From Bacteroidota bacterium (GTDB lineage: Bacteria; Bacteroidota; Bacteroidia; Palsa-965), in the NCBI GenBank assembly GCA_020402865.1, contig JADBYT010000010.1, positions 124,001 to 188,000 on the forward strand: 64,000 nt of DNA, read 5' to 3'. Positions 2,548 to 45,151 of the stretch are shown here, one piece after another. The notes under the pieces are model-generated. The model made no database searches and was not told the DNA's origin. It saw only the letters and a list, made by a program, of their open reading frames with translations. The translations under genes and the position numbers were made by a program. Each line of letters opens with the position of its first letter. The stretch's first letter is position 1.

Positions 2548-3015
2548 ATGCACCGCCTGCTTATTTTCTTTCTGTTCATTTCAACACCGGTTTTGGCAAA
2601 AAAAACCATCGCCGCCCAGCTGCTCAAACAATCGGGGCACGTGGTTCAGGTACGTGTATGTAATGCGCCGGGATTTCCCGCACAAAAAAATAATCCTACA
2701 CCCGATACCTACAGGCTGGTGGTGCAGGAAGTATATAAATCAGAAACGCTGAAAGCCGGCGATACCATTGCCGTAACTGCTGCACTTTTTTCGCTGGCGG
2801 TGGATACACTCGGCCAGCCCTATTTCAGCAACAATATCCAACCCGATAAAGTATTTATCCTCTTCCTCAACAAAGAAACGCCACGCAGCTATTCTTACAA
2901 CAAAAGGAATTATACCCTGCATTACCTTACCGATCCTGAACTGGGCATGCAGCCGTTTTCACTGCACCTGCACTACTGGCTCACCGAAACACAAAGCAAA
3001 AAGAAGAAAAAATAA
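2548..3015 (+). CDS. Small secreted protein of unknown function, first gene of the pyrrole-module operon
   Basis: The 155-residue product begins with a clear signal peptide (basic start, LLIFFLFIST core, cleavage near VLA-KK). A mixed alpha/beta body of roughly 130 residues follows, ending in five lysines. The middle reads YRLVVQEVYKSETLKAGDTI, an immunoglobulin- or NTR-like strand pattern, but I do not recognise the family. It has one cysteine in the mature part. Only 4 bases separate its stop from the carrier-protein ATG, so it is almost certainly on the same transcript as the adenylation module. Whether it takes part in that pathway, for example in export or at the cell surface, cannot be told from sequence. 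Confidence 0.7.
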   Translation: MHRLLIFFLFISTPVLAKKTIAAQLLKQSGHVVQVRVCNAPGFPAQKNNPTPDTYRLVVQEVYKSETLKAGDTIAVTAALFSLAVDTLGQPYFSNNIQPDKVFILFLNKETPRSYSYNKRNYTLHYLTDPELGMQPFSLHLHYWLTETQSKKKKK

Positions 3016-3019
3016 GTGT

Positions 3020-3283
3020 ATGCCGAACGTTAGTAACGATACCATTAAAGCCGAAGTACGCCGTTTTCTGGATGAAAATTTATTTGCCGGAAAACCGGAT
3101 ACTTCATTTACTGATGACACGCCGCTCATCAGCTCGCGCCTTATGGATTCCATTTTGGCGCTCAAATTAGTGAGCCATCTCGAAACCACGTTCAATATTG
3201 AATTTGAAGCGCACGAGGTGGATCAGGATAATTTGAATACAGTGAATGTGATTACTGAATTTGTGGCTAAGAAATGTCAGTAA
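3020..3283 (+). CDS. Free-standing acyl/peptidyl carrier protein
   Basis: This 87-residue protein is a carrier domain. The phosphopantetheine site is Ser44 in LMDSILALKLV, with Asp43 before it as in the DSL/DSI motif. The preceding TPLISSRLMD and the following HLETTFNIEF are the usual helix-II surroundings, and DNLNTVNVITEFV closes helix IV. Carrier proteins of this short type serve stand-alone adenylating enzymes such as those of pyoluteorin (PltL) and prodiginines (PigG, RedO). Its last 10 bases overlap the start of the ligase gene, implying translational coupling and a matched pair. It is unlikely to be the fatty-acid ACP, whose gene normally neighbours fabF. Confidence 0.88.
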   Translation: MPNVSNDTIKAEVRRFLDENLFAGKPDTSFTDDTPLISSRLMDSILALKLVSHLETTFNIEFEAHEVDQDNLNTVNVITEFVAKKCQ

Positions 3284-44138: not shown

Positions 44139-44171
44139 TTTGGCGTTAATCATAAAATGCCTCTATATTTG
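44139..44171 (+). promoter_or_regulatory. Promoter of the phenylalanine hydroxylase attenuator
   Basis: TTTG (44139-44142) and TATATTTG (44164-44171) match both Bacteroidota promoter boxes at a 21-nt spacing, the best promoter in the window. The leader-peptide ATG at 44176 lies about where the transcript should begin. Confidence 0.75.
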
Positions 44172-44175
44172 CCGT

Positions 44176-44241
44176 ATGAAATTTATGCTCACTGCCGCTA
44201 ACTCATATTATTACTACCAGGTTCCCGAACCCGGTGTGTAA
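44176..44241 (+). CDS. Tyr-rich leader peptide of a transcription attenuator
   Basis: A 21-codon frame starts ATG AAA TTT and contains four consecutive Tyr codons (44206-44217) before ending QVPEPGV and TAA. Such a peptide has no expected function besides ribosome stalling when charged tRNA-Tyr is scarce. It is followed by a terminator hairpin and then the hydroxylase gene, whose product makes tyrosine. Its ATG is 5 bases after the -7 box, so its mRNA would be leaderless. It is too short for standard gene finders. Confidence 0.8.
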   Translation: MKFMLTAANSYYYYQVPEPGV

Positions 44242-44292
44242 TAGTTTATCTATATCAGTCACAACCCGGTTCGAAAGGCCGGGTTATTTTTT
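44226..44292 (+). promoter_or_regulatory. Attenuator: alternative antiterminator and terminator hairpins
   Basis: The terminator pairs AACCCGG (44263-44269) with CCGGGTT (44279-44285), extended by two T-G pairs, and is followed by ATTTTTTT. An alternative pairing joins 44226-44234 (CGAACC, bulged C, GG), within the last leader codons, to CCGGTTCG (44266-44273), which would break the terminator. A ribosome stalled on the Tyr codons leaves 44226-44234 free; one at the stop codon covers it. A small hairpin GGTT-CCCG-AACC (44220-44231) may pause polymerase. Confidence 0.75.
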
Positions 44293-44335
44293 TGCCTTTC
44301 TGCCGGGTGTTTCCAATCAATCATCAAACCAAAAA

Positions 44336-45151
44336 ATGAAACGTAAAATGATTCAGCACTGGAACCGCTACACCCGCGACGACCACGAAGTATGGGAAAT
44401 CCTGTTTACACGCCAGCTGGCTTCGCTACAGGATAAAGCCTGCCGCGAGTATCTTGAATGCATAAACCAATCGGCACTGAAAGCCGGCGAAGTGCCCGAT
44501 TTTTCGGTGCTTAGTCCGCACCTGAATGCGGCTACCGGCTGGGAGGTGGAAGTGGTAAAGGGTATAATACCTGTTACGGAATTTATGGAACTGCTTGCCC
44601 TCCGGCGGTTTTGTTCATCCACCTGGCTGCGGCAGCGGCATCAGCTCGATTACCTGGAAGAGCCCGATATGTTTCACGATATTTTCGGGCACATTCCGCT
44701 GTTCTACCACGGGGAGTATGCCGATTTTGCCTGCCGTTTCGGGCAGCTTGGGCTGCGGTGGAAGCATGATGCAACTGCATTGGCTTTGCTTGAGCGGCTT
44801 TACTGGTTTACGATTGAATTCGGGCTGATACGCGAAGCCGGCGAGGTAAGAATTTACGGAGCAGGATTACTTTCGTCGTTTGGCGAAACGAATTATGTGA
44901 TGCACGATGCGCAGGTGAAACGGCACGATTTTTCGGTGCAGGCTGTGCTGAGCATGCCTTTCCGCAACGATGCCATACAAACCGATTATTTTGTGCTGGA
45001 AAGCTGGGCGCAACTTTGGAATTGTTTGCCCGAAACGGAAGCTTTTTTGCGGGATGTGGCTGCGGGCAAAATTGCGAAGGAAAGCCTGCGGCTGCACGAA
45101 CAGAAAGGCAGTGCGGAAATGACGGCACCCGCGGTTGAAATTGCAGGTTGA
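44336..45151 (+). CDS. phhA: Phenylalanine 4-monooxygenase (aromatic amino acid hydroxylase)
   Basis: The ATG at 44336 gives 271 residues, the size of bacterial enzymes; an upstream ATG at 44234 falls inside the attenuator and is rejected. Iron ligands are His114 and His119 in MFHDIFGHIPLF and Glu161 in LYWFTIEFGL, with RIYGAGLLSSFGE following. The enzyme hydroxylates phenylalanine to tyrosine using tetrahydropterin and oxygen. The leader with four Tyr codons implies that expression rises when tyrosine is short, an anabolic role rather than Phe breakdown. No pterin carbinolamine dehydratase gene lies next to it. Confidence 0.93.
   Translation: MKRKMIQHWNRYTRDDHEVWEILFTRQLASLQDKACREYLECINQSALKAGEVPDFSVLSPHLNAATGWEVEVVKGIIPVTEFMELLALRRFCSSTWLRQRHQLDYLEEPDMFHDIFGHIPLFYHGEYADFACRFGQLGLRWKHDATALALLERLYWFTIEFGLIREAGEVRIYGAGLLSSFGETNYVMHDAQVKRHDFSVQAVLSMPFRNDAIQTDYFVLESWAQLWNCLPETEAFLRDVAAGKIAKESLRLHEQKGSAEMTAPAVEIAG

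Follow-up and report, generated by a model that had tools for sequence, protein, structure and literature searches.

The stretch of DNA analyzed here (the window, 64 kb on contig C10 of the 4.9-Mb Bacteroidota genome G000) raises the question which role is played by a phenylalanine 4-monooxygenase (PAH), an enzyme that is usually regarded as catabolic in bacteria, when its gene is preceded by a short reading frame containing four tyrosine codons in a row. The first-pass annotation had described a promoter, a Tyr-rich leader, a terminator and the hydroxylase gene at this site, a layout that was borne out by direct reading of the sequence: on the forward strand, a Bacteroidota-type promoter is followed by the leader MKFMLTAANSYYYYQVPEPGV of 21 codons, a terminator with its run of T and the PAH gene. 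When a short ATG ORF with a run of three identical residues and then a good terminator were sought throughout the window, the arrangement was found in a single place among 974 short ATG ORFs, 109 of which contain such a run. The leader had no match to any Rfam cis-regulatory family at the gathering score, the weak matches lying far below.

The gene at 44336–45151 (+) encodes a single-domain PAH of the bacterial type with 271 aa. The protein matches PF00351 and the bacterial equivalog model NF008877 (263.1 bits, cut-off 247), stays below the cut-off of TIGR01267 (244.9 bits, cut-off 264.75) and has 4etl and 1ltu among its PDB relatives; its nearest named relatives stem almost throughout from Bacteroidota. 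Since it is flanked by a methionyl-tRNA-synthetase-like gene on the opposite strand and a downstream LD-carboxypeptidase-like gene, PAH is not part of any obvious aromatic-gene operon in the window. In other genomes, where neighboring clusters were named by sequence reading (HPPD and HGD were profile-checked for the window genome), PAH genes without a Tyr leader are often located behind trpB-trpA-DAHP synthase and ahead of his genes, or beside HPPD/HGD. These contexts exclude PAH genes with a Tyr leader, none of which resides in a trp-his operon or an HPPD/HGD cluster, while several adjoin a pterin dehydratase gene. In genomes of the Cytophagales type, a supra-operon with trp and DAHP synthase genes before PAH and his genes after it was seen at L030, L034, L053, L058, L060, L066 and L080. 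Other Bacteroidota feature a second aromatic amino acid hydroxylase family of about 590 aa (L119-L122 and many genomes of the phylum), and no Tyr leader precedes this hydroxylase in the two genomes in which the upstream DNA was read (L119-L122).

With regard to transcription initiation, the promoter read from the sequence (44139–44171, +) consists of a −33 box TTTG at 44139–44142 and a −7 box TATATTTG at 44164–44171. The boxes are spaced 21 nt apart, as is characteristic of the Bacteroidota sigma-A type, and scored 6/6 and 4/4 in the promoter box scan; a generic sigma-70 scan returned only 9/12, which is background level. Because the −7 box of Bacteroidota is set at −12 to −5 (PMC9723704), transcription is predicted to start at about 44176, on the A of the first leader ATG, and the leader mRNA would therefore be leaderless; were translation to begin at the second in-frame ATG, at 44185, the 5′ UTR would measure 9 nt. 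The predicted leaderless ORF MKFMLTAANSYYYYQVPEPGV extends from this ATG to the TAA ending at 44241 (44176–44241, +). Its clustered end-product codons, as expected of an attenuator leader, are the Tyr codons TAT TAT TAC TAC at 44206–44217 (+), the candidate sensor and at the same time strand 1 of a predicted protector hairpin. A YYY run is encoded by a short upstream ORF in 37 of 122 PAH loci, whereas runs of Leu, which rank second, number 17 and those of any other residue at most six each; Tyr is the only residue with outstanding runs before PAH.

Between leader and gene, an intrinsic terminator is present (44263–44293, +), the stem of which (AACCCGGTT/GGCCGGGTT, 44263–44285) is followed by an A and seven T (44287–44293) and was not equaled in any of 300 shuffles of the region. 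Two further pairings are predicted that exclude it or each other. In the MFE structure, the Tyr codons pair with a segment across the leader stop and form a 1:2 protector hairpin (44206–44245, +; −14.1 kcal/mol). In the 2:3 duplex (−16.9 kcal/mol), strand 2 (CGAACCCGGTGTGT, 44226–44239, +), which lies within the last leader codons and constitutes the 5′ strand of the antiterminator, pairs with 44260–44273, and this pairing between leader and terminator arm was equaled in one of 300 shuffles. The mutually exclusive 1:2, 2:3 and 3:4 pairings and the corresponding ribosome positions can all be accommodated in the window. As strand 2 ends at the leader stop, it would be hidden by a terminating ribosome and left accessible by one stalled at the Tyr codons. 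The overlapping antiterminator and terminator of classical attenuation, as first proposed, could be drawn in the window and recur as own-matched pairing in relatives; the segment originally proposed to be freed by stalling (44226–44234) is better drawn as about 44226–44239. At equilibrium, the 3:4 terminator (−13.2 kcal/mol) is stronger than the looped antiterminator (−9.5 kcal/mol), and the switch must therefore act during transcription. Such a kinetic decision is a property of classical attenuators.

Among the 122 PAH loci, which stem from public genomes, 44 (the window and 43 others) have the same architecture of Tyr leader and terminator upstream of the gene. This count requires a terminator, allows GTG starts and near-runs, takes in the GTG-start leaders L044 and L083 as well as two marginal leaders and contains a few loci that represent the same genome twice. 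Spacing between leader stop and terminator is regular (20–41 nt). None of 1560 dinucleotide shuffles equaled the terminators observed in 39 regions, and the nine predicted pairs of the terminator stem all exhibit pair-keeping changes on both sides when 34 leaders are aligned. For the antiterminator we resorted to cross-pairing, single-locus shuffle energy tests being noisy in GC-rich genomes. Strand 2 pairs better with its own terminator than with those of other loci (mean −12.1 vs. −9.4 kcal/mol, Wilcoxon p = 1.7e-6), and the window leader ranks first of 39 leaders for the window terminator; better own than cross pairing means that leader and terminator covary. The 1:2 hairpin, clear in the window, amounts to no more than a tendency in the relatives (mean z −1.5; p ≤ 0.05 in 18 of 39). 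Conserved Tyr runs with covarying hairpins before PAH, the lack of which the first-pass annotation had named as the main argument against its own proposal, were looked for and found, an outcome that speaks strongly for the proposal. A CCCGGTTC...GAACCGGG core recurs in the PAH terminators despite their wide divergence and is also seen in the window at 44263–44285; it may be caused by common descent or by a coding constraint on strand 2.

The element is highly likely to be a transcription attenuator of the ribosome-mediated kind, by which the level of charged tRNA-Tyr is sensed and PAH is regulated as an enzyme of tyrosine biosynthesis. From the leader with its Tyr run, the terminator, the own-matched antiterminator, their recurrence throughout the phylum and the lack of an alternative tyrosine-forming enzyme, we infer stalling, termination and induction as follows. 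RNA polymerase would start at or beside the leader ATG. With sufficient Tyr-tRNA, the ribosome would reach the stop codon at 44239–44241 and cover strand 2, the terminator at 44263–44285 would form and transcription would end before PAH. When Tyr-tRNA is short, the ribosome would stall on the four Tyr codons, and strand 2 would be free to pair with the 5′ arm of the terminator, such that the terminator is blocked and PAH is made. If translation is absent altogether, the Tyr codons would pair with the stop region and termination would be the default. Very probably, the switch turns PAH on only in tyrosine shortage.

Comparable leaders are not restricted to PAH. When 395 genomes were searched with a covariance model built from the PAH leaders, it also matched His-run leaders before hisG (L172-L174, L177, L179-L181, L189), Thr/Ile-run leaders before an aspartokinase-like amino-acid kinase gene (L171, L175, L187), mixed Phe/Tyr leaders before pheA and, in one relative (G139, L167), a Tyr-run leader, MNLSFSTYYYFYYPVITSRNCSSMF (STYYYFYYP), before tyrA, the gene for prephenate dehydrogenase, so that the enzyme that usually makes tyrosine bears the same sensor there. 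In the window genome, tandem Phe-codon leaders, MQKQLNNYFFFFNAMR and MKRQTSTVFFYFFFIQP, with one terminator each are located before pheA (L130, G000:C28:66000-73500, ~2875–3097), which places this gene under a putative double attenuator. Phe/Tyr-rich leaders occur before pheA in many relatives and are paired in at least six (L136, L139, L145, L146, L156, L159); among hand-picked pheA leaders, those from genomes lacking TyrA have a lower Tyr share (Mann-Whitney p = 0.016), which is no more than a hint. Because Phe-run leaders stand before pheA in the same genome and a Tyr leader before tyrA in one relative, sensing of the end product appears as the rule here, and, judged from these sequences, end-product leader attenuation is common in Bacteroidota and the PAH leader follows its logic. 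The same set of leaders speaks against the notion that the leader acts through poly-Tyr stalling that is intrinsic or caused by a drug, or senses the queuosine state of tRNA-Tyr reading TAY codons, and not tyrosine shortage. While an identical RNA switch would conceivably serve such stalling or modification-dependent decoding, similarly built leaders carry the respective end-product residue before hisG, the aspartokinase-like kinase gene, pheA and tyrA, and we regard this possibility as quite improbable. Still less credence can be given to a chance encounter of a Tyr-rich short ORF with an ordinary terminator: short ORFs and terminators are common and the generic promoter scan remained at background, but a fortuitous arrangement is refuted by its conservation at 44 of 122 PAH loci, by 0 of 1560 shuffles and by the own-pairing preference (p = 1.7e-6).

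Gene content bears on whether PAH is biosynthetic or catabolic. Prephenate/arogenate dehydrogenase (PF02153, a model that scores above cut-off in 165 of the 198 Bacteroidota genomes) is absent from the window genome (completeness 100). Because prephenate dehydratase is present and the dehydrogenase is absent, phenylalanine can be made and PAH is the only recognized route to tyrosine. Absence of the dehydrogenase was noted for 31 of 37 genomes with a Tyr leader vs. 6 of 28 with leader-free PAH (Fisher p = 6e-7), and for 25 of 29 vs. 5 of 20 when only ATG leaders were called; shared ancestry weakens this association, since the two traits show just 5 and 8 changes on the PAH tree, which do not amount to independent events and are too few for an independent-pairs test. 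Six Tyr-leader genomes do have prephenate dehydrogenase; several others also lack prephenate dehydratase, and in these PAH would convert imported phenylalanine. In Dyella and Echinicola, fitness data demonstrated that PAH contributes to the formation of tyrosine (PMC7311316). A role of PAH as a tyrosine-biosynthesis enzyme is strongly supported for the window genome, in line with the original proposal that it serves tyrosine synthesis, one part of which was nevertheless overstated, as HPPD and a diverged HGD are also encoded. The two genes lie in tandem (L161, 5272–7731, −), and the 385-aa HGD is missed by PF04209 and only weakly matched by TIGR01015 and PF20510. Because of these genes tyrosine could also be degraded, and degradation is probably within the capacity of the organism. 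As markers of degradation in Bacteroidota, absence of PF04209 was dropped as too insensitive, the model having missed the HGD beside HPPD, and HPPD was dropped since it was matched in 57 of 58 genomes tested (54 over cut-off) and does not discriminate. The adjoining HPPD and HGD genes, together with the clustering of some PAH genes of the phylum with HPPD/HGD, would fit a mainly catabolic enzyme (Phe to Tyr to homogentisate) whose attenuator only spares phenylalanine when tyrosine is plentiful. We consider this unlikely: the PAH genes clustered with HPPD/HGD lack the Tyr leader, induction by tyrosine shortage has the wrong sign for degradation and the window genome is devoid of prephenate dehydrogenase.

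Turning to the start of the leaders, for many of them the predicted start of transcription coincides with the first codon or lies close to it. A predicted 5′ UTR of less than 10 nt was found for 14 of 23 leaders with a perfect box vs. 5 of 33 other gene starts at the same loci (p = 6e-4), a comparison built on predicted start sites. In transcript maps, 3.7% of the 5′ UTRs in Bacteroides are shorter than 10 nt (PMC7366714), and 5.5% of the mRNAs in Flavobacterium are leaderless (PMC9723704). A precedent for a leaderless attenuator leader is trpL of Sinorhizobium meliloti, where transcription of the attenuator likewise starts with the leader-peptide AUG, albeit with Trp codons and in the Alphaproteobacteria (PMC7298713). 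We give about even chances to the reading that leader-peptide attenuators of the leaderless type are in use throughout the Bacteroidota; the tyrosine sensor would then be placed at the tyrosine-forming enzyme of the respective genome (tyrA, or PAH as its replacement), the transcript would begin with the start codon, and the ribosome would load without a Shine-Dalgarno site and be coupled to the polymerase from the first bases. Bacteroidota are reported to lack Shine-Dalgarno sequences, and the predicted leaderless leaders pose the direct question how coupling begins in such a phylum.

Leader-peptide attenuation is a classical mechanism, and the PAH leader resembles the pheA and trp attenuators of E. 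coli in its run of end-product codons, its 1:2, 2:3 and 3:4 pairings and the terminator before the structural gene. It differs from them in its putative sensing of tyrosine and control of PAH, in being predicted as leaderless and in its Bacteroidota promoter. The aroR leader (Phe-Tyr-Phe) before aroF in Corynebacterium glutamicum is also an aromatic attenuator with a Tyr codon but has been reported to respond to Phe, not Tyr, and its target is DAHP synthase and not PAH (PMC11802643). For amino-acid operons of Flavobacterium psychrophilum, the same mechanism has been inferred within the same phylum from transcript maps, with tyrosine and phenylalanine absent from the main text (PMC9723704). Known biosynthetic PAHs share enzyme and role with the protein studied here, and the accessible text on them does not describe cis-regulation. 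Neither a tyrosine-specific leader attenuator nor attenuation of PAH was found in the searchable literature; tyrosine specificity and the PAH target thus appear to be undescribed there, although an earlier mention is possible. Replacement of prephenate dehydrogenase by PAH makes tyrosine synthesis oxygen-dependent (PMC7311316). The Tyr-codon attenuator marks genomes with PAH in place of prephenate dehydrogenase, and, where conserved, it would provide a sequence test for biosynthetic PAH that is usable in uncultured lineages.
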